From NCBI GenBank assembly GCA_015523195.1, contig WAKU01000095.1, positions 1 to 35,936 of the forward strand: DNA of 35,936 nt. The letters are read 5' to 3'. Below the pieces are notes generated by a model. It did not search any database. It was not told where the DNA came from and saw only the letters and a list, made by a program, of their open reading frames with translations. A program made the translations under genes and the position numbers. Shown piece by piece: positions 1,108 to 33,363 of this stretch. Position 1 is the stretch's first letter. Every line of letters starts with the position of its first letter. This DNA is from Thermococcus sp. (GTDB lineage Archaea; Methanobacteriota_B; Thermococci; Thermococcales; Thermococcaceae).

Positions 1108-1383
1108 TTGGGCCACACGATTTATTATAAAACTGAGGTCTCAAAATGGGAGGAATTTGAAGGGTTCCTCAAAAGGGTCTGCATGGGCCTCGGCTATGGG
1201 GTAGAGAGTCAGGGAGATGCCGTGCTCATATTCCCAAACTGTGAAGCAGTAGAGCCGCTGAGGGTGGAGAGAAAGGGGGAGGGCTTCGCTAAGACGAACC
1301 TAATTGAGCCCTGCCACTCGGTTTATCTCCTTATGCTTCACTCCGTCGCCTCCTTTGGCTCCGTCGCGGTCTGGGAGGACTGA
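1108..1383 (+). CDS. Conserved-looking hypothetical protein, 91 aa
   Basis: A 91-residue cytoplasmic protein of unknown function. The TTG start is chosen because GGTGAT sits four bases upstream and a TATA box lies at 1071. Its composition is that of a real globular protein: a mixed helix/strand N-terminal half, then a hydrophobic stretch SVYLLMLHSVASFGSV. Three cysteines are present (CMGLGYG, FPNC, EPCHSVY) but form no recognised metal motif. Its 3' end runs 46 bases into the 3' end of the convergent DUF2101 gene. I do not recognise the family. Confidence 0.65.
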   Translation: MGHTIYYKTEVSKWEEFEGFLKRVCMGLGYGVESQGDAVLIFPNCEAVEPLRVERKGEGFAKTNLIEPCHSVYLLMLHSVASFGSVAVWED

Positions 1384-2090
1384 TCAAGGTACACCTCAAG
1401 AACCCTGATCGGGATCGAGCTCCTCATGGCCCTCTCCTCAACGAGGAGCTTGACTATCCTGCCGGGCTCGGCATCGGGAACCGCCGGAACCCAGTAATAG
1501 CCGGGCTTAACGTTCGCCCCTATGTCGTCGTGGACGAAGACCCTGATAAGATCGCCCTTGACCTCCTCGACGATCCCGTAGGTGTAATCCCTCCCGTAGC
1601 GGGAGCGGAAGGCCCACCTGAAGACCAGCACAACAGCAAGGACCCCTATTAGATAGGCGTAGTAGTAGTACACCCCCCTTACGGTGGCCTTCAGGAGGAG
1701 GTAGCCGGCAAAGGAGATCGCTGAGAGAACGAAAAGGCCGCAGTAGAAGAACCTGTAGGAGGGAAAGTCTATTATAAATTCCCTGTTTGAGACCACCACG
1801 TACCTGAGGGCAAAGAAGGAGAGGATCGTTATCACACCGAAGGCGTAGACCCATCCGAGGAGCACTGTGAGGAGGGACGCCGCCAAATAAGTCAGGATAA
1901 CAAGCTGAACCTCCAAGCTGATAAGCTCGTGTGTCGTGAGGCCCCTCTTGAGGAGCCTTCGGAGAAACCCGGGCTCAGGAGGATTTTTTCTTGGCTTTGG
2001 AATGAAAAAGGATACGATGGCGGAGAGGCTTTCTCCCGCGGCCTTTTCAAAGGCTAACCCCACTCGATAGAGGAACTCCGTGAAATCCAT
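1338..2090 (-). CDS. DUF2101 family membrane protein
   Basis: A 250-residue membrane protein resembling the DUF2101 family of Thermococcales; function unknown. An amphipathic N-terminal region (1-55) is followed by hydrophobic segments at about 62-98 (probably two helices), 115-133 and 139-160. A C-terminal soluble domain (about 165-240, rich in beta-strand patterns such as GIVEEVKGDLIRVFVHDD) looks OB- or SH3-like. The ATG is preceded by GAGGTGAG. The gene starts nine bases after the stop of the large DUF2341 pilin-like gene and is the last gene of the pilin operon, suggesting a membrane-anchoring or accessory role in that surface system. The assembly link is inferred from position only. Confidence 0.8.
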   Translation of the reverse strand: MDFTEFLYRVGLAFEKAAGESLSAIVSFFIPKPRKNPPEPGFLRRLLKRGLTTHELISLEVQLVILTYLAASLLTVLLGWVYAFGVITILSFFALRYVVVSNREFIIDFPSYRFFYCGLFVLSAISFAGYLLLKATVRGVYYYYAYLIGVLAVVLVFRWAFRSRYGRDYTYGIVEEVKGDLIRVFVHDDIGANVKPGYYWVPAVPDAEPGRIVKLLVEERAMRSSIPIRVLEVYLDQSSQTATEPKEATE

Positions 2091-2099
2091 GGTCTCACC

Positions 2100-4532
2100 T
2101 CACGGGCAGGTGTAGCCGTAAAGCAGATCACAGGTTCCCTCCGGTCCGATGACTTCCCCTGCTGTCCCGGGATCGAGGAAGAAGGGGACGGTGCTCAGGT
2201 CGCCGGTTGCTAAAACCCCCTCCGAGATCCCCCATACGCGGTAGCCAGTGACCTTCTGGCCTCCGTTGAAGTAGTAGTTGAGGAAGTAGTAGTCAACGCT
2301 GGACTCGCCATCCTCCACCGTGAGTCCAAGGGTCGCGAAGAGGTTATAGAGCTTCGAATCGTAGTTTGGATCGGGTATCATAAAGCTCACGAGGCCGATC
2401 GGGTAGTGCCTGCCGCCGTAGGTGTAGCCCATCTCGTCCTGAGTATCGTTCGCGAGTTTCTCATAGGCGAGGTGGTTCCTGTTGCTCCCCTCAAGCCTCT
2501 CGAAGAATGACCAGCCGTTTTTCGTTGCTATATACCTCTGATCCATCAGGCAGTTGATGAGGAGCTGGAGGTCGTAGACCCTGCCCCCAGAGGCCTGAGA
2601 CTGACCCGATGACCCGGAGGAAGGCTTCTGCTCGATGACCTGAGCTGGGTCAGTGGTTCTCCAGTAGAAGGTTATACCGTTGAAGTTGGGGTCTTCAAGG
2701 AGATCGCTTGAGATCGTGTACTTCCTCACGGCAACCCAGTCATAGGTCGTGGTCCTCCGTTTTCTTTCACTGTCCGTTGCCCAGTAGACGTACTCAAGAG
2801 GTTCCACCCAATATCTTGGGCTGTATCCACTGTCGTAATTTACTCTACCATCTGTTATATCCTTGAACTTGGCACTCTTCCAGTATGTTGAATACGGCTT
2901 CATCAAAGCTTCGTATACATGGAACGAGGTTATGGGATACCTGGCTGAAACATGGGACTCCTCAATCCACCAAGCCCAATGTATGGCCAATCCATCTCCG
3001 CTCCTCGTTGTGTCGTCGGTGAAGGCAAGGTCATCAGGAATTAAATCTGAGTCTTCAACTATAACACCGCTGTCCCAGTCACGGTAGTTTCCATTCCCTT
3101 TCATCCTGAACCTCACCGCAAAACCACCGTAGAGATCAAGGGGCTTTTGGTTTATGAGATATTCCCTACTGTTCCCCCCATTTATCGTTTTCGGACCTGC
3201 AAAGAGAACGAAGACGCTCTTTCCATCCCCTTTTGTCGGCGTTACTTCGCCCCCAAAATACATCTCAACGTTTAGAGAACTACCCTTCGGAATGGAGGCC
3301 CTTATCCAGATCAGAGCCCTCTTATTCACCGGATCCCAGTACTCTATCCAGAATGGAATGGGGTTGCAGTTTGAATCGTAGAAGGCTATTGAGGCATTAG
3401 TCTGGTAGGGATCGTTCGTGAGAGAGTAGGTGTTCTGAGTGTTTTGGAAGATCACGTTCAAAATCTGGCTTGTGAATCCCTTGGCGGTGCTTATAAGGAG
3501 CGGAATTTGGTAATCGTTAAGATCGACACCAACTTGGTTCTGGACGGTCAGGTTTATTCTATAGCCCAGGGGAGAGCACCAGCCGGGGACTGTACCCCCT
3601 CCACCCCCCGAGCCCGAAGACACGTTGGAGAACACCATTACCCCAACGTCCCCGCTGGCTTTTATGAACGCATCGGTGGTAACCTGAGCCCCGTCGATCG
3701 TGAAGTTCGTGAGGTAGTCCCCGTTCTGGTCCCAGACATGTGTTAGGTTGTAGCCCAAGTCTGAGCTGAGCTGGGGGAACTCCTCAAAGTTCCCAACCAC
3801 GTGGCCCACGCTCGATGACCCCGAGCCATTGGCGTAGACGACGGGTCCCTCCCCAAACTCCGGGTAGGCTAAGGGGCAGGCCCTTATGGAGCGCTGGTAC
3901 CTACCGCCTGTCATGGCGGAGAATATTGGATCCTCAAGGTCCCTGATGTCAACAGTGGAGTAGACGTAGCCGCCGGTTGAGGGTATCGGGCCCGAGTAAA
4001 CGATTTTCCCGAGCCTGTCGGATATTCTGATGTGCGGAATGCGGCCCTTTACGACCACAGTAAATGCGTCGAGAGGGGCAACGCGTATCTCCATCGAGTC
4101 CACTATCTCGTTCAGCGACGGGGAAACCTCGTACCCCTGCTCGGCGAGCATTTTGGTGACGTTGGAGAGCCATACCCTCAGCGTCTGCTTGCCCATAACC
4201 CTCTCGATATCATAGCCTGTTATTGAGGAAGAGGTGCCGCTGAGCATCAGGTCGCGGATGGTGTTGTTAGCCATATAGGAAGGGCTTATGAACCTCCCGG
4301 TGACGGAAACGTAATCAACGGTCGCCACAACGGCCCTCTTACCGGATAGTTCCAACGCCTTCTGAAACTCAAGGTTGAGGAAGGAAACGACATCGTAGGT
4401 TCTCTCAACGTGGGTTCTCTCGCTCTGTGCGGTGATCACCTGGTTCGAGACGTTCTCGTAGGTGGCCATTAGAAGCATCAGGGGTATAATGAGTATCAGA
4501 ACGGAAGCGTTCAGAAGGAAGCCCCTCCTCAT
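2100..4532 (-). CDS. Large pilin-like surface protein with DUF2341 domain
   Basis: An 810-residue protein. The chosen ATG (4532) overlaps the preceding stop as TGATG and follows a strong GGAGGGAG site; an in-frame GTG 15 bases upstream lies before that site. The N-terminus MRRGFLLNASVLILIIPLML resembles a class III (type IV pilin) signal, but it has Phe rather than Gln at +1 and no acidic residue at +5/+6. After an N-terminal alpha/beta region come a Gly/Ser linker (about 305-315) and a DUF2341 domain (about 323-430). A lectin-like beta region follows, ending near YDWVAVRKYT, then a Ser-rich linker and a C-terminal domain. Several N-x-S/T sequons are present. It is probably an exported adhesin or tip subunit. 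DNA for the DUF2341 region is AT-richer than its flanks. Confidence 0.8.
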   Translation of the reverse strand: MRRGFLLNASVLILIIPLMLLMATYENVSNQVITAQSERTHVERTYDVVSFLNLEFQKALELSGKRAVVATVDYVSVTGRFISPSYMANNTIRDLMLSGTSSSITGYDIERVMGKQTLRVWLSNVTKMLAEQGYEVSPSLNEIVDSMEIRVAPLDAFTVVVKGRIPHIRISDRLGKIVYSGPIPSTGGYVYSTVDIRDLEDPIFSAMTGGRYQRSIRACPLAYPEFGEGPVVYANGSGSSSVGHVVGNFEEFPQLSSDLGYNLTHVWDQNGDYLTNFTIDGAQVTTDAFIKASGDVGVMVFSNVSSGSGGGGGTVPGWCSPLGYRINLTVQNQVGVDLNDYQIPLLISTAKGFTSQILNVIFQNTQNTYSLTNDPYQTNASIAFYDSNCNPIPFWIEYWDPVNKRALIWIRASIPKGSSLNVEMYFGGEVTPTKGDGKSVFVLFAGPKTINGGNSREYLINQKPLDLYGGFAVRFRMKGNGNYRDWDSGVIVEDSDLIPDDLAFTDDTTRSGDGLAIHWAWWIEESHVSARYPITSFHVYEALMKPYSTYWKSAKFKDITDGRVNYDSGYSPRYWVEPLEYVYWATDSERKRRTTTYDWVAVRKYTISSDLLEDPNFNGITFYWRTTDPAQVIEQKPSSGSSGQSQASGGRVYDLQLLINCLMDQRYIATKNGWSFFERLEGSNRNHLAYEKLANDTQDEMGYTYGGRHYPIGLVSFMIPDPNYDSKLYNLFATLGLTVEDGESSVDYYFLNYYFNGGQKVTGYRVWGISEGVLATGDLSTVPFFLDPGTAGEVIGPEGTCDLLYGYTCP

Positions 4533-6712
4533 CAGCCCTCCCTCCACACGCGGAGTGTAATCTGTATCGGCCTGAAGAGGCCGGGGATGTTGCCCATGGA
4601 GGCCGCCTCTATCTTTACTCCCTCCGGAAGGTCAACGTCTATTGGGTTCTGCTGGGAGCCATCGTATGGTGCACTCCTCCACTCGCCCGGGTTTTTGTCG
4701 CCGATGTAGTTTAAGTTGTTGAAAAGGCGAAGGATTGCGTCGTCTACGGCATATCTCGTGGGGTTGAGGTCGTTGACGGATAAGGGTTTGTAGGGGGGAT
4801 CCCCAACGAGGATGTGCCTCTCGTAGGTGTTCGTTCCGTCAGAGTAATAGTACGTGAGATTGTAGCCTTTGTAAGTTGGGTAGCCCTGGAGTATGTATGG
4901 AAAAACGTCTCCATAACCCGCGTAGGCCTCGATGAAGTACTTGATAATGCCCCTCGTCACCTGGTATCTGAAGGATGTCCCTCCATTGTCCACCCCGGTT
5001 TCAAGCTCGGCTTTAAACGTGTTTGAACCCGGTTTCATCATCCAGGGATAGATCTTGGAATACGCAATCCTTAGTGCGTAAACACCATTGGGGCCACTGT
5101 AGAAGGTGTTCCCATTCTCCTCCAAATACTGTGTGGTCGAAGCGGCAAAGCAGTAGCCAACCCACAAGTCAGCATACCAGGGGATGGCTTTTGATGGAAG
5201 GGTATACTGAATCGTCATTGTCTTGTAGGTGTCACCACCACAGTGGTATCCCGTGTACCCACTGTACGTTGGCGTATCATAGCCTATTGGTATGGACAGG
5301 GGGATGCTGTACCTTGTTATGACGGTCCTTGGTATGTAAGAGATCTGGACGTAGGAATCGGGGTAGCCGTATAAAACCCTCTCCCTCTCCCCCCCGCAGT
5401 CACTGGCGGGGCAGGAATAGGAGTAGTAGCTCGCCCCCCCATAGTGGAACTGACCGTCGGAGGTGTAGTATTTTGCATCTATAGCCACAACGAAATCAAA
5501 GACCATTTTTGACAGGTTCTCATAACTCACCCCAATTGACGCGAGGGCGTTTTCGATCTCCGAGTTTGTGAACTCAACCGTCTGGACCGAGTTTGGATTC
5601 ACGGTCTTTTCAAGGAGAAGATAAAGGTTGGCCCCCAGCCCGTAGTACAGGCGCACCACTTGAGCCCCCTTGACCTTGAAAACCATGTTTATCCCAGTTA
5701 TATTGCCGGGCACGAAGTTCTCGAAAAGGTAAATGAAGCCGGTATATTGAGACGTCACATTGTAGACCTTTATAAGGCCTGGGTTGCCCGCGCGAAGACT
5801 GTTGCTTTTGTATTTAACGTATACCGTCGTTCCACTGCCAATACCAATTGTGTAGCGATAGTAGCTTCCGTAGTAGGCTGAATCATGGAAGTACATCCTT
5901 ATAACGTTCTTGCCAGGTACGAGGTAGTTCTTTATGTTCGGGGCGTTCGGCTCCGTGCCACTTAGAGCCACGTGGTTGCCGTTTATATAAACATCCTCCC
6001 GCTCCAGGAATCTGTGCACGAAGTTGCCATTCGCTTCATATATATCCTTCTGGCTATCTGTGGGTATGTTGATCGTACTGATAACATCGAGGGAGTTGCT
6101 GTATCCACTACTGGAAAAGCCTCCGGCGAGAACCCTCATCCATCCAAACAGGTCGCTCCTCACAAACGCAGCCCTCGTCAAATAAGCCCTCGCCATGTAG
6201 CCCCGCGGGGTTTGGTTGTAGGCGTAGCCGCTCATGATTAGGGTCGCCGGGGAAACGTCAGGCGCCTTTGAATAGCTTCCACTGGCCCGCGTCAGGTAGG
6301 GGCTTGTGTAGTTGTTTATGAGTAGCTGATAGTCGTAGCCCCGCAGGGTTTTATTCAGTATGTAACCGAGGATTATTTCAGCCTTGTGCCTGAGGTCGAG
6401 AGTCGGGTATATCGGCCCCGTCGCCCAGTAGGTCGAGACTATGTCGAGCGGATCCATGTCGGGGCTCACGAGACCGCCCACAAGAACGCCGTTCTCGGTC
6501 CAGTTCCTTATCACACTCGCCGGGACTATCTGATTGAGGGGGACCGTCCGAAGGGTGAGGAGGGTGTTCTCGGCCAGGTATTTGTTCTGGGAGCGCATGT
6601 ACGTTGAGTAAACATTCCCCTGGTTCATAATGCCCACTATGCTCGTCGCGAAGAGCGTAACGAGCAGGAGCGACAGGAGAGCATCGAGCGTGAACACGAA
6701 TCCCCTCCTCAT
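4532..6712 (-). CDS. Large pilin-like surface protein with class III signal peptide
   Basis: A 726-residue protein beginning MRRGFVFTLDALLSLLLVTLF. This is a basic n-region, a Gly, then a hydrophobic helix with Asp at +6, as in archaeal prepilin-like proteins. The helix continues into an amphipathic segment with LLTLRTVP, matching the layout of the neighbouring 475-residue protein. The remainder is a Tyr-, Ser- and Asn-rich, predicted beta-rich extracellular region with several N-x-S/T sequons and a few Cys that may form disulfides (for example SCPASDCGG). No enzymatic motif was recognised. The ATG overlaps the upstream stop by four bases (ATGA), and its own stop overlaps the next start (TGATG). 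It is probably a large minor pilin or adhesin. Confidence 0.75.
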   Translation of the reverse strand: MRRGFVFTLDALLSLLLVTLFATSIVGIMNQGNVYSTYMRSQNKYLAENTLLTLRTVPLNQIVPASVIRNWTENGVLVGGLVSPDMDPLDIVSTYWATGPIYPTLDLRHKAEIILGYILNKTLRGYDYQLLINNYTSPYLTRASGSYSKAPDVSPATLIMSGYAYNQTPRGYMARAYLTRAAFVRSDLFGWMRVLAGGFSSSGYSNSLDVISTINIPTDSQKDIYEANGNFVHRFLEREDVYINGNHVALSGTEPNAPNIKNYLVPGKNVIRMYFHDSAYYGSYYRYTIGIGSGTTVYVKYKSNSLRAGNPGLIKVYNVTSQYTGFIYLFENFVPGNITGINMVFKVKGAQVVRLYYGLGANLYLLLEKTVNPNSVQTVEFTNSEIENALASIGVSYENLSKMVFDFVVAIDAKYYTSDGQFHYGGASYYSYSCPASDCGGERERVLYGYPDSYVQISYIPRTVITRYSIPLSIPIGYDTPTYSGYTGYHCGGDTYKTMTIQYTLPSKAIPWYADLWVGYCFAASTTQYLEENGNTFYSGPNGVYALRIAYSKIYPWMMKPGSNTFKAELETGVDNGGTSFRYQVTRGIIKYFIEAYAGYGDVFPYILQGYPTYKGYNLTYYYSDGTNTYERHILVGDPPYKPLSVNDLNPTRYAVDDAILRLFNNLNYIGDKNPGEWRSAPYDGSQQNPIDVDLPEGVKIEAASMGNIPGLFRPIQITLRVWREG

Positions 6713-8136
6713 GAGTCATCCCACACCTTAAGCTGTATCAAAACCTGTTCGAACTTTGGCTTCAGGAACCACTCAAGGCTTGGAAACAGCCGGATGTCCA
6801 CATCTTTTCTGCCCCATCCCGAGAGCGAGTAAAGCCAGAGCCCTATGGTATCCCCGCTCTGAGGTGAGCCGAAGACGTCATTTAGGGGTATTACGATCGA
6901 GTTCCCCTTTCCCTGGTATCTCCTTATCTCCCCTCCCAGGACGGTTATGCCCCAGAGGGCACCGCTGTCATCCCTGTAAATCAAGAGCCCCCCTTCACTG
7001 CTCCCCGAGAGAACGAACATGGTCATGTTTCCAGCGGTTGAGGGAACCGTTACGTTCATGTAGGCCCCGGGAGGCAGGCCCTCTGAGAGGACGCCGTATA
7101 CCATTGGCTCTTCGCTTGAAGGCCCAGAGGAGAGGTTGTAGGCGAGCCTGCTTATCACACCCATCCTCATTTCGGGCTCTATCCAGGGAGACCTCTCCAT
7201 CGATGCATTTATCACGCCCCAATCGGTAACAACACTGCCGTTTACCACCGCAAAGCGATAGGTGGGGCTGTTGTTCTGAAGGAGAACCGTGGGAAAGATG
7301 TAGGTGGAGTTAAAGACGGGGGTCGTGTTGTCGTAGGCCGAGACGGTTATAACGACGTTTCCCTGTCCGGTGAACTTGAAAGTATAGGGACAGGAGCCGC
7401 CGCCGTAGTTTACCTGGAAGTTGCTGGCATCGGGCCCGGTTATGCGGATTACGACCCTTGCCCCACTCGGTATGCTGTAGGTCTCAACGTACTGTCCCCG
7501 TTTAGCCGTCAGCGTCACGTCCTCCGCGAGAACGAACTGGAGCAGATCACCACTCTGGAGGTCTATTGTGTTGCCCGAGACGAGGGTGCACATTTCATCG
7601 TTGGTATACACATTCCCATTTCTCTCAAGCTGAACCCACGTCACTGTAAAGGGACTGTTGCCGTTTCCGCTGGTTATCTCAAAGTTGATCCCATTACCGT
7701 TCGGGTTCTCAAAGGTCTCGTTCTGGAGGTACACCTTAGGAAAGCGCCCGCTTATTGAAACACGGAACCTGGAGACGTAGACTGAAAGGAGAAAGTCCTT
7801 ACCACCCGACTCATTGAGCAGGGCCCTCACGACCCCTGCAGGGTTCTCACCGAGGGCCACGATTTTCTCGTAGCTCAGGGAGTAGATGCTTGAGGGATCC
7901 CTCAGACCCACCACCTTAGCAGACGACGGGTTGAGCTCCCAGTTCACGGGCTCCCCCGGGCTTTTCATGAGGACGTCGAGCATGTTGTCAGCTATGTTGG
8001 CCCTCTCGTACCAGCCGAGGGTCGAGGCTATCTCGTCCTTGAGGGCGGTCGACGTGTTCACCACCGCCGCGAAGACGAACATCATGACTATCAGTGAAAT
8101 GAGCGCATCGAGTGAGAGCAGCTGACCCCGCCTCAT
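6709..8136 (-). CDS. Pilin-like surface protein with class III signal peptide, 475 aa
   Basis: The N-terminus MRRGQLLSLDALISLIVMMF has a basic stretch, Gly before Gln at +1, and Asp at +6 in a long hydrophobic helix, consistent with a type IV prepilin-like signal. The following segment contains LMKSPGEPVNW, close in layout to LLTLRTVPLNQ of the next protein, so the two large pilins probably share an N-terminal domain. An extracellular, strand-rich region with N-x-S/T sequons follows (for example NESG, NASM, NMTM). Start and stop are each linked to neighbours by ATGA overlaps (8133-8136 and 6709-6712), so translation is coupled. Function beyond surface display is not evident. Confidence 0.78.
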   Translation of the reverse strand: MRRGQLLSLDALISLIVMMFVFAAVVNTSTALKDEIASTLGWYERANIADNMLDVLMKSPGEPVNWELNPSSAKVVGLRDPSSIYSLSYEKIVALGENPAGVVRALLNESGGKDFLLSVYVSRFRVSISGRFPKVYLQNETFENPNGNGINFEITSGNGNSPFTVTWVQLERNGNVYTNDEMCTLVSGNTIDLQSGDLLQFVLAEDVTLTAKRGQYVETYSIPSGARVVIRITGPDASNFQVNYGGGSCPYTFKFTGQGNVVITVSAYDNTTPVFNSTYIFPTVLLQNNSPTYRFAVVNGSVVTDWGVINASMERSPWIEPEMRMGVISRLAYNLSSGPSSEEPMVYGVLSEGLPPGAYMNVTVPSTAGNMTMFVLSGSSEGGLLIYRDDSGALWGITVLGGEIRRYQGKGNSIVIPLNDVFGSPQSGDTIGLWLYSLSGWGRKDVDIRLFPSLEWFLKPKFEQVLIQLKVWDDS

Positions 8137-8600
8137 CCCCTGACCGCCTCCACTGTAACGTTGAAGCTCACACGCCCGTATTTCAGGAGGCCGTTTTCGC
8201 TTATCACGCCGTTTTTCGATTTGAGCTCACCGACTATGAAAGCCGCCACGGCCTTCTCCAGGGAGCTCCCATCGAGGGGCCCCCTGTATTCCAAGACCAC
8301 CCTGACGTTCATCCATCCGCTGGCTTCCTCCTCGCCGACGCCCTTCACGATGCAGCCCGGGGAGGTGTAGTTGAGGGCTTTTATCAGCGGGTTTAGCGGA
8401 GCGTATTCTGGCCCTTCCTCCGCCACACCGGTGTTTATGTAGGAGCAGGCCGTCGAGGCGGCGCCCTTCACCTGCATGAGGATGAAAGCCCTGTCGTTGT
8501 TCCCGAGGTAGTAGGGGGCTATCACAGCTGTTCCCAAGAGGATTATGCCCGTTATGAAGAGAACCTCTATGGCGGTCTGGGCCCTACTCAAGCTCAACAT
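8133..8600 (-). CDS. Small pilin-like protein with class III signal peptide, 155 aa
   Basis: The N-terminus MLSLSRAQTAIEVLFITGII fits an archaeal prepilin: a basic residue, probable cleavage before Gln, Glu at +5 (QTAIE), and a hydrophobic helix. The mature region has two Cys (STACSYIN and SPGCIVKG) that could form a disulfide across the pilin head. The ATG follows GGGGAGGA, and the start overlaps the upstream gene by 17 bases; the stop overlaps the next start by ATGA. Its size is typical of a major or minor type IV pilin. No assembly ATPase is encoded nearby, so it would depend on machinery elsewhere. Confidence 0.8.
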   Translation of the reverse strand: MLSLSRAQTAIEVLFITGIILLGTAVIAPYYLGNNDRAFILMQVKGAASTACSYINTGVAEEGPEYAPLNPLIKALNYTSPGCIVKGVGEEEASGWMNVRVVLEYRGPLDGSSLEKAVAAFIVGELKSKNGVISENGLLKYGRVSFNVTVEAVRG

Positions 8601-9027
8601 ACGTCCTCCCCTCAGCGGCGTTGTAAACCGCGGTTACGTTGAAGTCCTTCCTCTTCTCATCCAGCGTCACCGAGGTTGTCGTGTAGACGGGCACCTGAAG
8701 CCTCTGAACCACGAGGTACCTCTTTCCGGAGAGTACGGCCTCCACCGTTACCGAGTTGGAGCTGGAGTTGAGGGTGATCGAGATGCTGTCGCCTTTTCCG
8801 AGCTCTATGGGACAGTCCTTAACCACAGTGAAGCCGCCCCCGATGCTGTAGACCTTCGTAACCGTGTCCCTGACGTCAACGGCGAACGCCTTGAGCCTCG
8901 CGGTCTTGTCTATGGTGTTGGCCGTTGAGAGCTCGCCGTTTGCGAGGGAGACCGCGCCGGCTACCGTAACGCTGATGAGCATGAACGCTATCATGAAGTC
9001 AAAGGTTATCTGGCCCTCCCGCCTCAT
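8584..9027 (-). CDS. Small pilin-like protein with class III signal peptide, 147 aa
   Basis: Translation probably starts at the ATG at 9027, which follows GGTGGGTGAG and lies one base after the upstream stop; a GTG nine bases earlier sits inside that site. The N-terminus MRREGQITFDFMIAFMLISV has a basic stretch, Gly then Gln at +1, Asp at +5 and a hydrophobic helix, a good class III signal. The rest (LNSSSNSVTVEAVLSGKRYL and similar) is beta-strand rich, as expected for a pilin head. It belongs to the same coupled operon as the five other pilin-like genes. Confidence 0.8.
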   Translation of the reverse strand: MRREGQITFDFMIAFMLISVTVAGAVSLANGELSTANTIDKTARLKAFAVDVRDTVTKVYSIGGGFTVVKDCPIELGKGDSISITLNSSSNSVTVEAVLSGKRYLVVQRLQVPVYTTTSVTLDEKRKDFNVTAVYNAAEGRTYVELE

Positions 9028-9028
9028 C

Positions 9029-9661
9029 TCACCCACCCGGGTTGATGTTTATCCTGATCTCCCCGGAGCTCTGGTTGAAGAGCCACCTGTCGGGAAGGTC
9101 AGGGTTCCACTCCACGACCACAGTGAGCACAGGCGGAAGGCCTTCGGGTGGAAGCACGAGGCCGTAGAGGGTGTAAGCGGTCCCGTTTATGTTCAGCGTG
9201 GCGCTCGTGCCCCAAACGCTTGAGTTTCCCAAGAGGTCTTTCTGGTAGAAGGACTCGGCCCAGAACACGGTCTTTCCGCCACCTGAGAGAACGGCGTTCG
9301 TTGCTCCCGTTCCGTTGATAACGGTCACGTAGGTTCCGTTGGCATCGTCATAGGGCCCGTAGGTTATGAAAATCCTCGGGTCAGTCACCCCAAGGCCCTT
9401 CTCCAGGTAGTAGGGCTGCCGCAGGTAGGTGAGCCTTACATGGAGCGTGCTTTTGGAGCCCGGGCCCTGGGCGTAGGCCTGGTCTATGGCGTTTGATATC
9501 GAGCTCGCTAAGTTCTTCTCCTCAAGTGCTATCTGCATCGAGAGGGTGCCCTGGGAGGGCGAGCCCTGCCTGAACGTTGTGTTGTTGAAGGAGTAAACTA
9601 ACAGGATGAGCATTATTCCGAACACGAACATGAACTCGAGGGAAGACTGGCCCCTCCTCAT
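9029..9661 (-). CDS. Pilin-like protein with canonical class III signal peptide, 210 aa
   Basis: The first gene of the pilin operon. The N-terminus MRRGQSSLEFMFVFGIMLIL is the best class III signal in the group: RRG, then QSSLEF with Gln at +1 and Glu at +5. The body is strand-rich with several N-x-S/T sequons and no cysteine motif. Because it carries the canonical signal and comes first behind a probable promoter (TATA-like at 9693-9699), it is a reasonable candidate for the main structural pilin, although abundance cannot be read from sequence. The ATG follows GGGGTAGG. Confidence 0.83.
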   Translation of the reverse strand: MRRGQSSLEFMFVFGIMLILLVYSFNNTTFRQGSPSQGTLSMQIALEEKNLASSISNAIDQAYAQGPGSKSTLHVRLTYLRQPYYLEKGLGVTDPRIFITYGPYDDANGTYVTVINGTGATNAVLSGGGKTVFWAESFYQKDLLGNSSVWGTSATLNINGTAYTLYGLVLPPEGLPPVLTVVVEWNPDLPDRWLFNQSSGEIRININPGG

Positions 9662-9668
9662 TCCTACC

Positions 9669-9699
9669 CCTTAAACGACTTAAGGAGGGATACCTATTT
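9669..9699 (-). promoter_or_regulatory. Pilin operon promoter with a 17-bp palindrome
   Basis: Reading the - strand, a TATA-like TAAATAGG (around 9693-9699) is followed by CCTTAAGTCGTTTAAGG (9669-9685), an inverted repeat with 6-bp arms and a 5-bp centre. The palindrome lies between the TATA element and the expected transcription start, where a repressor would block initiation. It sits in the 43-base gap before the first pilin gene. The promoter is probable; the operator role is inferred. Confidence 0.5.
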
Positions 9700-9704
9700 A
9701 ACGC

Positions 9705-10355
9705 TTACTCACCAGAATTTGGGGGTTGCCCTACATTTTTGCCGGGTTCTGAGCTGACCACGGCGAAGTTCTCCCTGCCGAGCCTCACTATGGAGACCCC
9801 GAAGTAATCGTCGTTGAAGAGTTTGAACCTGTATTCCTCCGGGTTGAGGTTGTAGTCTTCTATGAGGGCCCGCATCTCGTCTATGAAGAACTGGGTGAGC
9901 TGGTGGTAGATTAGATCCCTCCTCTCACCCGCCCAGTCCCTGACCCAGATCCACAGGGGGAGAACCGAGAGGCCGACGGGAATAAGGTACGCCCCGAAGA
10001 GGAGGCCGGCCAAGACAAAGCCAAGGGAGAAAAGGGCTATCCCCGAGTAGAGGAAGCGCTCGGTCATTCTGATGCGCCTGAGCTCACCGACCTTTTCCTC
10101 CCAGATGTCCAGGAGGGCAGGGTTGTAGAAGTCGAAGGCGGTGTGCCTCTTCCCCTTCCGTATCCTCTCCCTTATGAGGTCGTCCCAGTCGTCCAGGTAG
10201 TAGACGGTGAAACCCTTTCTCTGGGCCCTCTCAGCGTCTATGGAGGAAATTATCCGCCTGATGTCCTCGGCGCTCTCCTTGGCTATGTGTGAGTAAACCC
10301 CCTTCTCGTCCAGTTCGAGGGCGACCTCAACCGAGTCCCTAACGGCCTCAGTCAT
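9705..10355 (-). CDS. Small membrane protein, unknown function, between CetZ and pilins
   Basis: A 216-residue protein I do not recognise. A charged, helical N-terminal cytoplasmic part (1-100) precedes a hydrophobic hairpin of two membrane helices (about 101-138), and a soluble C-terminal part (140-216) ends in a flexible tail. There is no signal peptide. The ATG follows AGGTGA and overlaps the end of the cetZ-like gene by eight bases, so the two are translationally coupled. The inferred role is an anchor or regulator acting with the tubulin homologue at the membrane, based only on adjacency. Confidence 0.75.
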   Translation of the reverse strand: MTEAVRDSVEVALELDEKGVYSHIAKESAEDIRRIISSIDAERAQRKGFTVYYLDDWDDLIRERIRKGKRHTAFDFYNPALLDIWEEKVGELRRIRMTERFLYSGIALFSLGFVLAGLLFGAYLIPVGLSVLPLWIWVRDWAGERRDLIYHQLTQFFIDEMRALIEDYNLNPEEYRFKLFNDDYFGVSIVRLGRENFAVVSSEPGKNVGQPPNSGE

Positions 10356-11445
10356 TCACCTCTGCCCCCGGGTAGAGGTCATCGAAATCCGGCAACCCCG
10401 TGAGGAGCTCCCTCTTCTTTTCCTCAGCCTCGGCCTTGGCCTTCATAAAGGACTTGGCGTAGCCCTTCGCAGTCAGTATTATCTCCTCGATGCTCCTGCT
10501 CTCGTAGATGCCGCTCAAAAGCGTTACGACCTCAACATCACGGGTTCTCGAATCCGGATAGAACCCCCTGAATATCTGCTTACCCTTTATTCTGCCGGTT
10601 AGCTCGTCGAGGGCCTCGAATATCTCCTTGGCCTTCAGAACCTCCGGCGGCCCGTGGATCGCAACGAGGCCGTAGAGGGCTGACTCAACCTTCGCCTCAA
10701 GGTAGAGCCCCTCACTCTCGAACGACCGCTCTATGAGCTTTGAGAGGCTCCTGACCTGGTCTGCTCTCGCCTTCGCGTATCCGACCGTCGCAAAGCTCCC
10801 GAAGGCCTTCAGAACGAACTTCAGGTCGCTTGCATCGAGGGTCTGCTCCCCGGGGATGTCTATGAGGGCGAGCAGTGAGCCTATCCTCTCGACTATCGTG
10901 TAGTTTATCTTCTCATAGGCTCTCGCTATGTCCTCATCGCTCTCCTTCAGCTTGTTGTTGTCTATGGCTATTATAGAATCGGCGACCTTGGAGAGCTTGT
11001 CTATCGTTATGGCCGCGTTGATTGTGGGCCTTATGCCCTCCTCCTTCAGCGGCAGGGCCCCAACGGCCACGACCAGAGACTCCGGGTACTCCTCCTTAAG
11101 CGCGGCGGCTAAGACCGGCGTTCCACCAGCTCCGGTTCCACCGCCGAAGCCGAAGGTCAGGAAAAAGATGTCAACGTCCTCGTAGCCGACCATCGAGGAG
11201 ACCTTCCTCATGACGAGGGGAAGGTCCCTTTTCATCGCTTCCCTTCCGAGCACGGGGTTTGCGTTCACGCCCTTGCCGCCTGTCAGGCTCTCGCCTATGA
11301 GTATCCTCCTCTCGGCCGGAATGTGCTTCAGGTAGTCGAGATCGCCCCGCGAGGTGTTCACGGCGATTGCCTCAAAATCAACGAGGGAAAAGAGGTCGGC
11401 TATCTTCGTCCCGCACTGCCCGACCCCAATTATTATAGCCCTCAC
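10348..11445 (-). CDS. Tubulin/FtsZ superfamily GTPase, CetZ-like
   Basis: A 365-residue tubulin-superfamily protein. The N-terminal strand-loop IIIGVGQCGTKI binds nucleotide, and GFGGGTGAGGTP at about 99-110 is the tubulin/FtsZ signature. The synergy (T7) region reads GEQTLDASDL, keeping the two Asp of FtsZ NxDxxD but with Thr in place of Asn. The C-terminal tail is helical and charged. Archaeal CetZ proteins control cell shape and surface structures rather than division; Thermococcales carry such genes besides true FtsZ. The start is GTG with GGGGGAGAGG upstream. It sits 12 bases after the secreted repeat protein and overlaps the membrane protein gene that precedes the pilins. The family is firm; the CetZ subfamily is likely. 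Confidence 0.88.
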   Translation of the reverse strand: MRAIIIGVGQCGTKIADLFSLVDFEAIAVNTSRGDLDYLKHIPAERRILIGESLTGGKGVNANPVLGREAMKRDLPLVMRKVSSMVGYEDVDIFFLTFGFGGGTGAGGTPVLAAALKEEYPESLVVAVGALPLKEEGIRPTINAAITIDKLSKVADSIIAIDNNKLKESDEDIARAYEKINYTIVERIGSLLALIDIPGEQTLDASDLKFVLKAFGSFATVGYAKARADQVRSLSKLIERSFESEGLYLEAKVESALYGLVAIHGPPEVLKAKEIFEALDELTGRIKGKQIFRGFYPDSRTRDVEVVTLLSGIYESRSIEEIILTAKGYAKSFMKAKAEAEEKKRELLTGLPDFDDLYPGAEVND

Positions 11446-11457
11446 GACCTCTCCCCC

Positions 11458-13689
11458 TCATCCTATTGTCCGCGCCCTGACCTCGTCAAGCTGTACCTTT
11501 CCATCGCCGTTGAGATCCGTGAAGGTTACCGCAACGGCCTTGCCCTGCATGTACTTCACGTACCCTATCTTGAAGATCAGCCTCGCCACGTCAGATGCCC
11601 CGCTGTAGAGGACGAAGAGCACAAAACCCCTTGAGGTTCTCCCCGGGATGAGGAGCACGGTACTGCCGGCGGGATAGGTGGAGTTGTTGACCCTCACGGA
11701 GACCCCGTTCAGGCCCACAGTTATGTAGCGGTTGTACCTGCTCACGTTTACCTCAGTGAAGCCGGCTAAAACAACGTAGTTTCCTGAGGTGAGGTTCCCG
11801 AGGGGCTGGACGTCAAAGTGGAAGCCGAAGTCCCTCCTGAGGTAGTTCAGCACCGCCGTTGCGTCGTCGAGCTTTCCGGCCCCGTAGGCCACCGTGAAGA
11901 ACCCGCTCTCCATCGCCGCCCTGACGTCAGAGAGATCCGCAGAGGGCATCCTCCTGAGCTTTTGAAGATAGATGATCGCAGAGGAGAGCTCTATCGTATC
12001 GTTAACGACTTCGGGGAGCATCTTCTGGACGAGGGACAGGGTTTCGTCGGTGTAGTCCTTACCGAAGTCGAGGAGGAGCAGGGTTGCAGAGACCGTCAGG
12101 TCGAGCCTCGGTTTCCCAACGTGGATTTTATCGTCCATTCCCCGGTACTCCCTCATGTAAGGCCAGCCGCCGTCAACCCGCTGGTCTATCAGCCACGAGA
12201 TGTGGGGTTCGAGCTGGCTCCCGCTCGCTATCGGTTTGAGAGCCCAGAGGACGGTCAGGGTGTCGAGCACGTTCATGTCGAGCATGTAGCCGTAGAGCTT
12301 CCCCTCAGCGTAGAGGCCCCAGCCGGTTGAGCTTATTGAGAGCAGCCAATCCCTGGCGGCCTGAACGTCCGGATCGGTTTTGGGAACACCTAAGGAGAGG
12401 AGCAGGTCAACGGCCATCGCGGTCTCCGCTGGCTGGGGACCAAGGCCCCTTACACCCCATCTCCCCCGCTCAAGCTCAAGGGAGCGTACAACCGAGACCG
12501 CGTGCTCCCTCTCGCCACGGGATAGGGCATTGAAGTGGAGCAGGGTTTTAAGGGCGTAGTAGTAAGCCACCGTCAGCCTTCCAGCCGAGATGGCCTCCTT
12601 CTCGTCCATTGGGAGCCTGGACTTCGTCCAGTTCACCCCCCTTTCAACGACCGCGGGGGCCGGATAGCATGCTTCTATGGCCAGGAGCGCGTAATAGGTC
12701 GCCTTCTCATTCGAGGGCCCGCCCCTGAGGATTCCCCAGCCGCCATCGGGGTTCTGGGCCGAGATTATCTCACTGCAGGGGGCGGCGTTTATGTTCCTCC
12801 GGTGTATGGGGGGCACGAGCCTGGAAACCGCGAGGAGGGCATAAGCCGTTGGGGTTACGGTGTCCGTTATCGAGATCGGGTACTTGGGCGTGTCCGCCCA
12901 GAAGACCATGCTACCACCAACGTGCTTCATCTCATCCAGCTTCGCGAACTGAGCGACGACCTCGAAGGTGGGCTGTGAATACAGCGTAAGCGCGTAGGTC
13001 AGGATCGCCCTCTGCTCCACGCTCAGGTTGGGGGACTTCAGATCGCTCACCAGCTCCTCGATCTCCCCCTTGGATGGGGTTACGTTGAGCGCGTGCATGG
13101 CTATCAGCTTGAGGGCCAGGGCGCTCTCCCCGTCGATGTGCCTGGGCAGGTCGCCGAGCCTCCCGATGATGGAGGAGTAGTTCCTGAGGCCGTTTTCCCC
13201 GAGCGCCCAGAGGGAGAGCACCGTTGGGTAGAACATCGGCACGGTTTCGGGTACGTATCCCCAGCCGTCCGCCGTGGCAGACGAGGTCAGGAAGGATAAC
13301 CCCCTCTCCCTCGCTTCCTCAACCTTGAAGTAGTCCGCCGTGCCCTCGAAGAAGGGCAGGGCCCGTTTGAGCGCTATCAGGGCGTAGGCGGTGTCCATCA
13401 CGTTGCTGACGCTCCCCGGGAAGTAACCCCAGCCGCCATCGGGGTTCTGGTATGAGAGCAGCTCTCTCGTGAACTCCCTAATCCGCGGCGTCAGGTCGTC
13501 CCTGACCTTTCCGTTTGCCTCCGAGAGGGCCACTATCGAGAGGCTTATGTGGTCTATCCTCCCATCGCTGTCGCCGAACTTTCTCAAGAATGCCGCGGAG
13601 CCATCGTTCACCGGAACGGCGGCGGCAAACGGCGTGATGATGAACAGGGTTACGAGGACAACACCGGTGAGTTTAAGACCCTTTCCCAT
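11458..13689 (-). CDS. Secreted protein with prenyltransferase/squalene-cyclase-like repeats and EF-hand loop
   Basis: A 743-residue protein. The start is the ATG at 13689, six bases after GGGGTG; an in-frame GTG upstream is part of that site. An N-terminal signal sequence (KLTGVVLVTLFIITPFAAAV) indicates export. Repeated motifs such as QNPDGGWGYF, ATADGWGYV, QNPDGGWGIL and RVDGGWPYM across about residues 80-500 are typical of alpha/alpha-toroid prenyltransferase/squalene-cyclase repeats. No cyclase DxDD motif is visible, so catalysis is doubtful. The last 20 residues contain DLNGDGKVQLDE, a canonical 12-residue EF-hand loop. A TATA-like element lies at 13722-13731. It precedes cetZ by 12 bases. 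It may be a calcium-stabilised surface scaffold. Confidence 0.85.
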   Translation of the reverse strand: MGKGLKLTGVVLVTLFIITPFAAAVPVNDGSAAFLRKFGDSDGRIDHISLSIVALSEANGKVRDDLTPRIREFTRELLSYQNPDGGWGYFPGSVSNVMDTAYALIALKRALPFFEGTADYFKVEEARERGLSFLTSSATADGWGYVPETVPMFYPTVLSLWALGENGLRNYSSIIGRLGDLPRHIDGESALALKLIAMHALNVTPSKGEIEELVSDLKSPNLSVEQRAILTYALTLYSQPTFEVVAQFAKLDEMKHVGGSMVFWADTPKYPISITDTVTPTAYALLAVSRLVPPIHRRNINAAPCSEIISAQNPDGGWGILRGGPSNEKATYYALLAIEACYPAPAVVERGVNWTKSRLPMDEKEAISAGRLTVAYYYALKTLLHFNALSRGEREHAVSVVRSLELERGRWGVRGLGPQPAETAMAVDLLLSLGVPKTDPDVQAARDWLLSISSTGWGLYAEGKLYGYMLDMNVLDTLTVLWALKPIASGSQLEPHISWLIDQRVDGGWPYMREYRGMDDKIHVGKPRLDLTVSATLLLLDFGKDYTDETLSLVQKMLPEVVNDTIELSSAIIYLQKLRRMPSADLSDVRAAMESGFFTVAYGAGKLDDATAVLNYLRRDFGFHFDVQPLGNLTSGNYVVLAGFTEVNVSRYNRYITVGLNGVSVRVNNSTYPAGSTVLLIPGRTSRGFVLFVLYSGASDVARLIFKIGYVKYMQGKAVAVTFTDLNGDGKVQLDEVRARTIG

Positions 13690-13721
13690 TGTTGGCACCC
13701 CTAAGAGGCTAATGGGAGGGA

Positions 13722-13731
13722 GAATAAATAA
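13722..13731 (-). promoter_or_regulatory. TATA-like element for the secreted repeat protein/cetZ operon
   Basis: On the - strand CTTTATTTATT lies between the taw1 stop and the start at 13689, about 33-42 bases upstream, in an A/T-rich patch. It would let this gene and cetZ be transcribed independently of taw1. Confidence 0.45.
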
Positions 13732-13738
13732 AGTTTTC

Positions 13739-14746
13739 TTAGGTCAGCTTCGGAACGAACCTTCCGCCCAGCCCCCTTCCCCTCGGGTCAACGTCGTCGC
13801 GCATTATGAGGACGACCCTGCTGGGTTCGTATTCGTCCTCGATGTGGTAGCCCGGGAGATTCTTCACCAGCTCCTCTGCAAAGGCTTTTATCTCCTCGTG
13901 CCTGGGCATGTTGTTGATGGTCAGCCTCTGCCTTGAGAAGCCCACGAACATGTAGGCCTTTGCCTCGACGAACATCGGGTTCGCTGTTTTGATGAGCTCA
14001 GCGTAGCCTTTCGGATTGTGCATGTTCTCGCCCTTCACTAAGGTCAGCCTTACTACCGTCCTCGTTTGAGCGTCCTCCATCAGCTTGAGCGTCTCCTTTA
14101 TCCTCTCCCAGCCGTCGGGTATCATGGGGACGTTTACTCTGTTGTAGGTCTCTATGTCCGGAGCTGTGAGCGAGACGTAGAGCTGGGTCGGGAGCTTATC
14201 CTCTCTTATCATCTCATCAAGCCTCTCAGGAACCGTTCCGTTCGTGACTATGAAGGTGGTGAAACCGCGCCTGTGGAACTCCTCAACTAAATCCCCCATG
14301 TAGGGGTAGAGCATGGGCTCGCCGGAGAGGCTTATCGCCGCGTGCCTCGGGTTCCACGCCTCCTCGAACTTCTCCTTCGGGACCTTCGGGTTGCCCTTGT
14401 AGCCAACTAAAAGCTTCCTCTGGGCCTTTATGCTCTCCTCGACGATGAAAGCCGGGTCATCCCACGGTTGCGGGAGTTCCGTTCCTAAGAAGCTCTCCAT
14501 CGGGCGCCAGCAGAAGATGCAGTTGTGGGTGCACCATGCCAAAACCGGCGTCATCTGAAGGCAGCGATGGCTCGCTATGCCGTAGAACTTCTGCTTGTAG
14601 CAGAAGCGGCCCTTGGTAAGGCTCTCCTTCAACCAGTGGCAGAGCTTTACCCCGCTGTGTCTCCCAACAATCTCGTAGTGCTGTTTCCTGAAGAGCCCGG
14701 CAATCTCCTCGGGCATGTTCGGGTTGGACCTCACGACTATCGCCAT
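13739..14746 (-). CDS. taw1: 4-demethylwyosine synthase (tRNA-modifying radical SAM enzyme Taw1/TYW1)
   Basis: A 335-residue radical SAM enzyme that makes 4-demethylwyosine from 1-methylguanosine at position 37 of tRNA-Phe, using pyruvate carbons. The radical SAM cluster motif CTHNCIFC gives Cys72, Cys76 and Cys79. Three further Cys (36, 49 and 62) precede it with the 13/13/10 spacing of the Pyrococcus enzyme's second cluster. The SGEPMLYP segment supports the family. The ATG at 14746 follows GGTGAG; a GTG nine bases upstream is part of that site. A TATA-like TTTTTAAAA lies upstream. This is a tRNA gene standing just ahead of the surface-protein cluster, with no evident functional link. Confidence 0.95.
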   Translation of the reverse strand: MAIVVRSNPNMPEEIAGLFRKQHYEIVGRHSGVKLCHWLKESLTKGRFCYKQKFYGIASHRCLQMTPVLAWCTHNCIFCWRPMESFLGTELPQPWDDPAFIVEESIKAQRKLLVGYKGNPKVPKEKFEEAWNPRHAAISLSGEPMLYPYMGDLVEEFHRRGFTTFIVTNGTVPERLDEMIREDKLPTQLYVSLTAPDIETYNRVNVPMIPDGWERIKETLKLMEDAQTRTVVRLTLVKGENMHNPKGYAELIKTANPMFVEAKAYMFVGFSRQRLTINNMPRHEEIKAFAEELVKNLPGYHIEDEYEPSRVVLIMRDDVDPRGRGLGGRFVPKLT

Positions 14747-14790
14747 TAGCCTCACCTAATTCTCTCCCTTAAGGTGAAGTGAGGGGCGGG

Positions 14791-14800
14791 TTTTAAAAAT
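14791..14800 (-). promoter_or_regulatory. TATA box for taw1
   Basis: ATTTTTAAAA on the - strand lies about 45 bases upstream of the taw1 ATG, with the GGTGAG site in between. Confidence 0.5.
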
Positions 14801-14892
14801 GTGATTGGCCATGGTTGTTCACCTGAGACCAACCCGGAAGGCCCATCAGGAAGCCATAAATATGAGCTTTGCCCAGTTACAACGGTGAAATA

Positions 14893-15525
14893 ATGGAGAG
14901 GATTCCAAGGAGGGAGCTCGTCAGAAAGCTCTGGCATGTTCTGCCGGGAGTTTTGGGAGCGCCGATAATACTTTTCACGCCGAAGTGGGTAACACTCATC
15001 GTTGTCTGGTCGCTGGCCCTTCCCTACACCCTCCAGCACCTCAAGCTCCGCCGGGGCTGGTCGTTCACGGTTCCCATAGCGGACCTGAGCTACAGAACGA
15101 TGGCGAGGGAGGACGAGGGGGACAACTTCCTCGGGAGCTTCCTCTTCTGGGTCACTATGGGAATCGTCTGCACGGTCTTTCCAAAGCTGGCGGCCCTCTC
15201 GGCCCTCTGGGTCTCCACCTTCGGCGACTGCTTCAACGCGATAGTTGGCCAGACAGTCGGAGGGCCCAAAATCCCATGGAACGGGCGGAAGACCTTCGCC
15301 GGGAGCTCGACGATGTTTCTGGTTTCCCTTCTGGCCCTCTGGGGTTCTTATAAGGCTCTTTCCCTGGACCCTTCGTGGGGCATAGCCATAGGCACGGCCT
15401 TTACGGCGGCGCTCCTCGAAAGCCTCCCCCTTCAATCGGCCTACGACGAGTTCACGGTTCCCCTCTCAACGGCATTCCTGCTCTGGCTCGCCTACGGCGG
15501 TTCACTGCTCTCTCCCTTCTGGTGA
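14893..15525 (+). CDS. Polyprenol/dolichol or diacylglycerol kinase-like membrane protein (SEC59/DGK1/VTE5 type)
   Basis: A 210-residue integral membrane protein. The ATG at 14893 is preceded by GGTGA; an upstream TTG is less likely. The N-terminal RRELVRKLWHVLPG and central STFGDCFNAIVGQTVGGPKIPWNGRKTFAGSSTMF match CTP-dependent lipid kinases of the SEC59/VTE5/DGK1 family (conserved GD, GR/K-S-x-xG elements). Several hydrophobic segments span most of the length. In archaea such enzymes may phosphorylate dolichol for N-glycosylation or isoprenoid alcohols for lipid salvage; the substrate cannot be read from sequence. A TATA-like ATAAATAT lies about 35 bases upstream. The gene is divergent from taw1 and convergent with the radical SAM gene. 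Confidence 0.8.
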   Translation: MERIPRRELVRKLWHVLPGVLGAPIILFTPKWVTLIVVWSLALPYTLQHLKLRRGWSFTVPIADLSYRTMAREDEGDNFLGSFLFWVTMGIVCTVFPKLAALSALWVSTFGDCFNAIVGQTVGGPKIPWNGRKTFAGSSTMFLVSLLALWGSYKALSLDPSWGIAIGTAFTAALLESLPLQSAYDEFTVPLSTAFLLWLAYGGSLLSPFW

Positions 15526-16326
15526 TTAAAGTTTAACGAACTCCCAGCCCCTCTGATGGGTCTCTATCCCCTCAGCCCTCACCCCAAGCCGGTTTATCTC
15601 CTCCCTCAGCTCCCGCAGGAACTTCCGGAATTTTTCCTCATCGGTAAGAACGGCGTAGCTCTCCGGATACTCCTCGCGGAGAAGCCTCCGGAAGTTCCTC
15701 CCCGAGGCGCGGAGGTTGAGAACCTCGAAGAAGTAATAACCGGCGAAGTCCCGGGTTTCCTCAACTATTGCCCTAACGTCACTCACTCCCGGAATTATCG
15801 GGCTGACGAAGGCGTAGGTCCTTAACCCCGCATCGTGGAGCTCTTTCAGGGCGCTAACCCTTGCCCTGTGAACCGGGGCGAGAGGCTCAAAAAGCTCCTT
15901 TTCCTTCCCGGTGAAGCCGTTTATCGTTAATCCGACCTCTATCGAGTGGAAGAGCTTAAAGAGGCCGATATCGCGCGTAACCAGCGGCGACCTCGTCAGG
16001 ATTGAGAGCTCGTTCCTCTTGTCCATATACTGAAGAACCCTCCGCGTGAGCTTCATCTCCGCCTCAACCGGCTGGTAGGGGTCGCTCACTGTGGACATTA
16101 CAACCTTCCCTTCAACGCGCTTTCTGGCCAGCTCGGGCGCGTTGGTCTTCACCTCAACCCAGGTTCCCCACTCGCCGTAGTCCCTCCACCGGGTTAAAAA
16201 GCGGGCGTAGCAGTACCTGCAGGCGAAGACACAGCCGACGTACTGGTTCACGCTCCAGCTCACTCCCGGAATTCTTGAGCGGGTGTAGAGGCTCTTGGCC
16301 TTCTTCCTGATGACCCGAAGGTTCAT
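15526..16326 (-). CDS. Radical SAM protein (SPL-like family), unknown substrate
   Basis: A 266-residue radical SAM protein. The cluster motif is CVFACRYC near residues 32-39 (CxxxCxxC), set in the VNQYVGC...CYARF context of the spore-photoproduct-lyase-like group of uncharacterised radical SAM proteins. Partial TIM-barrel features follow (VMSTVSDPYQPVEAE, LSILTRSPLVTRD, VGLTINGF, YAFVSPIIPGVSD). The ATG at 16326 is supported by a TATA element about 24 bases upstream, suggesting a nearly leaderless transcript. It is divergent from the metalloprotease gene, 37 bases away. The substrate is unknown; a DNA-repair role is not shown. Confidence 0.88.
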   Translation of the reverse strand: MNLRVIRKKAKSLYTRSRIPGVSWSVNQYVGCVFACRYCYARFLTRWRDYGEWGTWVEVKTNAPELARKRVEGKVVMSTVSDPYQPVEAEMKLTRRVLQYMDKRNELSILTRSPLVTRDIGLFKLFHSIEVGLTINGFTGKEKELFEPLAPVHRARVSALKELHDAGLRTYAFVSPIIPGVSDVRAIVEETRDFAGYYFFEVLNLRASGRNFRRLLREEYPESYAVLTDEEKFRKFLRELREEINRLGVRAEGIETHQRGWEFVKL

Positions 16327-32339: not shown

Positions 32340-32352
32340 GGAGGTGCTCGCC

Positions 32353-33018: not shown

Positions 33019-33019
33019 G

Positions 33020-33343
33020 ATGATGGACAGGCTCACCAAGACCCTACTGGTAGTAGTCGCCGCCCTGATAATCCTCTCGCCGATAGGGATACTCCTCGTG
33101 TGGAACTACAGCGACGCCTGGGGCGAGTGGGACGTCTCCACCGTGGAGCACATGGTAGGGCAGAAACTGCCCGGAATGGAGAAGCTCGCCAACGCATGGA
33201 ACCACGCGGTTCTCCCGGACTACAACGTTCCCGGCTGGGAGGACAAGCTCCACGCCTCAATAGGCTACATAATCTCCGCCGTGGTGGGGGTTGCGGTTGT
33301 ACTGGCCGTCTACTACATACTCGTCCGCCTCGCGGCCTCCTGA
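33020..33343 (+). CDS. PDGLE-domain membrane protein, CbiN-like transporter component
   Basis: A 107-residue membrane protein. The ATG at 33020 (or 33023) follows GGGGTGA. A first membrane helix (about 7-28), an extracellular loop with AWGEWDVS and LPDYNVPGWEDK, and a second helix (about 80-102) match PDGLE-domain proteins that replace CbiN/NikN in archaeal Ni/Co importers. It probably supports CbiM in metal uptake. A hairpin with a T7 run overlaps its stop codon. Confidence 0.88.
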   Translation: MMDRLTKTLLVVVAALIILSPIGILLVWNYSDAWGEWDVSTVEHMVGQKLPGMEKLANAWNHAVLPDYNVPGWEDKLHASIGYIISAVVGVAVVLAVYYILVRLAAS

Positions 33344-33353
33344 GGCTTTTTTT
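33335..33353 (+). terminator. Hairpin plus T7 inside the cbi operon
   Basis: GCCTC (33335-33339) and GAGGC (33342-33346) form a short tight stem directly followed by seven T (33347-33353), overlapping the PDGLE gene's stop. It may terminate some transcripts between the CbiM/PDGLE genes and cbiQO. Confidence 0.4.
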
Positions 33354-33363
33354 GGTGATCACC

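Follow-up and report, generated by a model that had tools for sequence, protein, structure and literature searches.

The window analysed here, the whole stretch of 35,936 nt from Thermococcus sp. (contig C95 of its genome), carries an island of ten minus-strand genes that encode an exported toroid protein, the tubulin-superfamily GTPase CetZ, a 216-aa protein (mp216), six pilin-like proteins and a DUF2101 membrane protein. In the reading that we prefer, to which we give about even credence, this island encodes the minor pilins (a tip or priming set) of the clade 1 (KlbA-type) type IV pilus of Thermococcales, beside a membrane-tethered CetZ scaffold. The reading builds on gene content, gene order, linkage, residue patterns and promoter-like boxes, which were read directly from the sequences; CetZ scaffolding of pili, tethering by mp216 and the tip position of one pilin are what we infer from them. 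The association of cetZ with pilin genes is itself already published (Makarova 2016, Brown 2023), and a joint function of CetZ and the pilins is a good, testable hypothesis.

Gene organization of the island

Ten same-strand genes had been proposed in the initial annotation, and ten uninterrupted minus-strand ORFs were indeed found between positions 13698 and 1338. The start then given to the run, 13689, is an in-frame ATG of the toroid gene, but the ORF itself opens at GTG 13698. In the direction of transcription, the genes encode the exported alpha/alpha toroid protein (746 aa, 11458..13698), CetZ (365 aa, 10348..11445), mp216 (9705..10355), which combines a conserved cytoplasmic domain with a variable transmembrane hairpin, three small pilin-like proteins (pil210, 210 aa, 9029..9661; 150 aa, 8584..9036; 155 aa, 8133..8600), three large ones (475 aa, 6709..8136; 726 aa, 4532..6712; 815 aa, 2100..4547) and the DUF2101 membrane protein (250 aa, 1338..2090; PF09874, E = 9e-77). 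The overlap of starts and stops described earlier was confirmed for most junctions, where the genes overlap or nearly touch, but not for the mp216-pil210 junction, nor upstream of the toroid gene.

At the start of each of the six pilin-like proteins, [KR][GA] and then Q or F stand ahead of a hydrophobic helix, in agreement with the class III signals previously assigned to them. The PF04021 profile matched two of the six (the 210-aa and 155-aa proteins), both below the cut-off, and a DUF2341 domain (PF10102, E = 1e-14) maps within the 815-aa protein, at about 3195-3392. A pilus ATPase and a prepilin peptidase had been reported as missing from this run of genes, and the window as a whole contains neither; the T2SSE matches of this genome are located on contigs C97, C32 and C88, and its sole peptidase-like match, a Peptidase_A24-like sequence below the cut-off in a search for EppA, is on contig C47. 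At 32344-34982 the window also contains genes whose translations, on visual inspection, resemble the parts of a cobalt-type ECF transporter (CbiM-, CbiQ- and ATPase-like).

CetZ and its conserved linkage in Thermococcales

The GTPase matched PF00091 with 108.3 bits (cut-off 33) and PF21011 (CetZ_C) with 57.9 (cut-off 21.6), remained under the cut-off of the ftsZ equivalog TIGR00065 (126.9 against 295.2), and had CetZ1 (4b46) as its best PDB sequence match, so that its earlier assignment as a tubulin-family GTPase stands. No other protein of the island is nearly as conserved, with a mean majority fraction of 0.89 for CetZ versus 0.46-0.64 for the rest; 263 of the 365 CetZ columns are at least 90% conserved, including the GGGTGAGG-type loop and the LDxSDLK T7 loop, and CetZ retains the loop that binds GTP as well as the aspartates of the T7 loop. 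According to Brown 2023 (PMC9856176), the P. furiosus CetZ matches most, not all, CetZ-specific nucleotide-pocket residues. A single cetZ orthologue was present in 76 of 78 Thermococcales genomes, and in the sister orders searched the matches were FtsZ-like proteins alone (about 30% identity).

Linkage was counted in 71 Thermococcales genomes, and gene order was inspected in detail in 20 loci, which represent six genera. The mp216 gene lies directly downstream of cetZ, on the same strand, in 71/71 genomes (gap of -5 to 89 nt in match coordinates), and the toroid gene lies directly upstream in 69, which are all the genomes that have it (gap of 10-64 nt). DUF2101 was found downstream of cetZ, in the same orientation, in 68 of the 69 genomes with both genes on one contig, and had no match in 21 sister-order genomes. 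The linkage of the three genes with cetZ (71/71, 69/69 and 68/69) is far above chance. The absence of any toroid gene from two genomes, G018 and G062, indicates that the toroid protein is dispensable; a TYW1-like gene adjoins cetZ in these two.

The order cetZ-mp216-pilins-DUF2101 was maintained in the 20 loci, with DUF2101 displaced in G007; in 4 of the 20 a small pilin escaped tblastn and was recovered from the ORFs. In one genus the upstream TYW1-like gene was not found and toroid, cetZ, mp216 and pilins are still together. Conserved linkage of these genes across Thermococcales, named in the initial annotation as support for a functional unit, therefore holds at the scale of the order. The unrelated guaA gene, on the opposite strand, is also syntenic in all 20 loci, so adjacency alone is no proof of joint function.

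Probable transcription units

Intergenic gaps are near zero except ahead of the toroid gene and between mp216 and pil210 (33-93 nt in 37 loci), and both places carry promoter-like sequences. A TATA-like box, AAACTTTATTTA, is located upstream of the toroid gene at 13725..13736 (minus strand, exact match in the window), and a second one, GTTAAATA, at 9695..9702 (minus strand), ahead of the pilin run. Within 80 nt upstream, a TATA-like octamer was found for the toroid gene in 38 of 40 loci and for the first pilin in 37 of 38, compared with shuffled-sequence means of 3.6 and 1.7, respectively, and with 0-3 at all other boundaries; these counts are partly post hoc, since the pattern list was drawn up after reading the sequences. 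The motif [AG]TTAAATA is present at -41 to -56 before the pilin run in 18 of 20 loci, and occurs 39 times in 400 kb of that strand. The boxes set toroid-cetZ-mp216 apart from six pilins-DUF2101; these are probably two transcription units rather than one operon, and could therefore be expressed independently.

The pilin run and a candidate tip cap

Mature positions were numbered from the predicted cleavage site between [GA] and [QF]. An acidic residue at mature +5 was found in all homologues of pil210 (38/38), of the 150-aa protein (38/38) and of the 155-aa protein (35/35, counting those with a recovered N-terminus), 111/111 in total; in the window these residues are Glu, Asp and Glu. The 475-aa and 726-aa families carry the acid at mature +6 (36/36 and 32/32, or 68/68), as Asp in both window proteins. 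The 815-aa family has no acid within the first 18 mature residues in any of 32 homologues, and its gene is the last pilin gene in the window and in the loci examined. The first, tip-capping subunit of bacterial systems is without Glu5, often large and encoded by the 3'-end gene (PMC5207764, PMC10191384). Because it is acid-free and encoded at the 3' end, the 815-aa (DUF2341) protein is proposed as the tip-most, first subunit, a position that the residue pattern supports, and the entire six-pilin run could be a priming complex, as the pattern suggests. This yields a testable order of pilus assembly, with the acid-free subunit first, at the tip.

In residue pattern and gene position the arrangement resembles the GspHIJK/PilHIJK tip complex with its Glu5-less cap, in that a single subunit, encoded at the 3' end, is free of the acid that the accompanying minor pilins carry. 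It differs from it in the large archaeal modules, in the acid at +6 in two subunits, and in a cap that is not always the largest subunit. The 815-aa family exceeds the other minor pilins in the window and is only 366-485 aa long in several genomes; in loci L007, L060, L064, L068 and L077 the last subunit is not the largest minor pilin, and DUF2341 was not found in the scanned short variants. The descriptions "largest" and "adhesin" are therefore not universal for this family.

An AF2 model of the 726-aa protein (mean pLDDT 76.7) begins with a helix, after which numerous beta-strands form several beta-sandwich domains. Foldseek returned 89 matches at E <= 0.001 (best 2e-7), among them cellulose synthase BcsB, reelin repeats and CBM-bearing proteins, with TM-scores near 0.1. 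Since these scores are very low and the likeness is confined to beta-sandwich modules, the protein is called multi-beta-sandwich and no function is assigned to it. In L007, the 475-aa pilin family is represented by an 818-aa form (13339-15795), whose residues 361-447 weakly resemble Bactofilin (E = 3e-4, under the cut-off).

The mp216 protein as a candidate CetZ adaptor

Residues 21-90 of mp216 have a mean majority fraction of 0.87, close to that of CetZ, compared with 0.46 for the hairpin, and the invariant segments GKRHTAFDFYNP and ESAEDI are candidate sites of a CetZ-mp216 interface. The AF2 model is helical and of moderate confidence (mean pLDDT 76.6). Sequence searches against Pfam, NCBIfam, PHROGs and PDB gave no match for mp216, nor did a fold search with the model at E <= 0.001. 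The family was seen in Thermococcales alone, in a search that included the sister orders. In one sister-order genome, G080, a match to the hairpin and the C-terminal part had an E of about 1e-4; it was rejected as a distant relative, being a chance match or too distant, because neither pilin nor tubulin genes adjoin it on its contig.

As its cytoplasmic half is frozen along with CetZ while the membrane segment drifts, mp216 looks adaptor-like and may hold CetZ at the membrane. This makes it a concrete candidate for a CetZ anchor, with a cytoplasmic half conserved as strongly as CetZ, and the locus bears on the membrane attachment of archaeal CetZ filaments and on the role of CetZ in Thermococcales. 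In G110 (contig C4) and G111 (contig C15), two fragmented genomes of one genus, the mp216 gene reads through one TAG, which may reflect a pseudogene, an assembly error or another cause.

The toroid protein

The squalene-cyclase-like repeats and the DUF2101 identity expected from the initial annotation were both recovered by profile searches, the toroid protein matching SQHop_N/C and TED profiles (PF13249, PF13243 and PF07678) with squalene-cyclase/TED-like repeats. A terpene (squalene/hopene) cyclase was rejected, with no DxDD motif and 28 bits against TIGR01507 (cut-off 431), as was a thioester (TED/complement) protein, with GCxEQ missing in the window protein and in all homologues checked. 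An EF-hand-like calcium loop, DLNGDGKVQLDE, is located at the C-terminus (about 11485-11520), and many, not all, homologues have one.

The probable assembly machinery is encoded elsewhere

A locus on contig C97 of this genome was found to hold genes for a DUF515 protein, a secreted protein, an intein-interrupted T2SSE ATPase (PF00437) and two T2SSF platform proteins (PF00482). The intein of the ATPase (L078, G000:C97, 7504-11067) carries a LAGLIDADG endonuclease; many relatives have instead a ~620-aa form of the KlbA-type ATPase. We take this ATPase to be KlbA by its likeness to the intein-bearing Thermococcales ATPases of that name. Its assignment to clade 1 is made from the intein, the gene context and the published statement that Thermococci have clade 1, and is thus a probable one. 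No pilins were found in the C97 locus. The label "satellite" given earlier to the island is hence apt, as the ATPase/platform locus lies apart from it and is itself pilin-free.

In 34 single-contig genomes (some sizes rounded) the distance between the ATPase gene and cetZ was never below about 30 kb, with a median of about 249 kb. The minor pilins are not in the same locus as the ATPase, unlike the usual, though not required, clade 1 arrangement. A KlbA-type ATPase was present in all 71 genomes with cetZ; since the KlbA locus is also pilin-free, it and the island look complementary throughout the genome set, pointing to an archaeal pilus system with the machine encoded in one locus and the tip, together with a cytoskeletal protein, in another. 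The archaellum locus of this genome is separate and has its own archaellins. No FlaI-type ATPase match was obtained in 11 of the 71 genomes, six of them single-contig, and these retain cetZ and mp216.

A model for the island and alternative explanations

Under the preferred reading, the six pilin-like proteins would be processed by a prepilin peptidase encoded outside the island and assembled by the KlbA ATPase and the two TadC/T2SSF platform proteins of the separate locus. The 815-aa protein would go in first and end tip-most, and the variable beta-sandwich and DUF2341 modules of the large pilins would be displayed for adhesion. With mp216 holding it at the membrane, CetZ would mark or scaffold the pilus assembly site, and the secreted toroid protein and DUF2101 may act as envelope accessories. 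The initial annotation had suggested a system that localises or times the building of a surface structure, an interpretation that is partly supported. The stronger form of this model, in which mp216 tethers a CetZ filament to the membrane and so places pilus-tip nucleation, making the locus a cytoskeleton-directed pilus assembly module, is a tentative proposal.

The two conserved promoter-like boxes fall exactly at a unit boundary, which would also fit two neighbours with separate jobs, kept adjacent by synteny: toroid-cetZ-mp216 would act in shaping the cell or organising its envelope, and the pilins in the KlbA pilus. The equally faithful retention of guaA (20/20 loci) and the effect of Haloferax CetZ1 on cell shape (PMC11621097) favour this explanation, but pilin linkage extends over 20/20 loci in six genera, including the genus without the TYW1-like gene, and halobacterial cetZ2 genes are described as independently adjoining other type IV pilus loci (PMC9856176, PMC4858521); we regard it as possible, at well under even chances.

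Rather than an adhesive pilus, the pilin run could form a short pseudopilus for type II secretion-like export, given its GspK-like acid-free subunit, its several large minor pilin-like proteins and the lack of a small stand-alone major pilin in the island. This appears improbable, because the homologous clade 1 system makes the pili of Methanococcus maripaludis, where major pilins are stand-alone genes, and DUF2341 occurs in PilY-type tip adhesins (both PMC4858521). An archaellum accessory role is very improbable. The archaellum is itself a type IV filament, and its placement is affected by CetZ1 in Haloferax (PMC11621097); however, the island genes cetZ and mp216 persist in the FlaI-less genomes, and the archaellum locus, with its own archaellins, stands apart in this genome.

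Comparison with known loci

FtsZ-family (CetZ) genes beside clade 1 type IV pilin genes were described in Thermococci by Makarova 2016 (PMC4858521), which cites Szabo 2007 and lists as locus partners an FtsZ-family GTPase (arCOG02202) and a squalene cyclase (arCOG03396). The island shares with that locus the GTPase, the squalene-cyclase-like protein, a DUF2341 adhesin and several proteins with class III signals. In the model of that study, PilY serves as the analogy for DUF2341 proteins at the tip, and the archaellum for the other minor pilins, which are put near the base; the residue pattern found here favours a tip complex. No mention of the mp216-GTPase pairing, of the two-locus split or of a pair of promoter-like boxes was seen in its main-text passages. 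Brown 2023 (PMC9856176) reports that cetZ has five to six pilins and two envelope proteins as neighbours in 15/15 Thermococcales, and already proposes a scaffold role for CetZ in pilus assembly; the present data extend this to 71 genomes, with exact mp216 and toroid adjacency, the distance to the ATPase and a candidate membrane adaptor. Relative to the available text of both studies, the new details are the counts across the order, a machine locus that complements the island, retention of the island without an archaellum ATPase, the pattern of N-terminal acids, an adaptor-like conservation profile in mp216, and the pair of promoter-like boxes.
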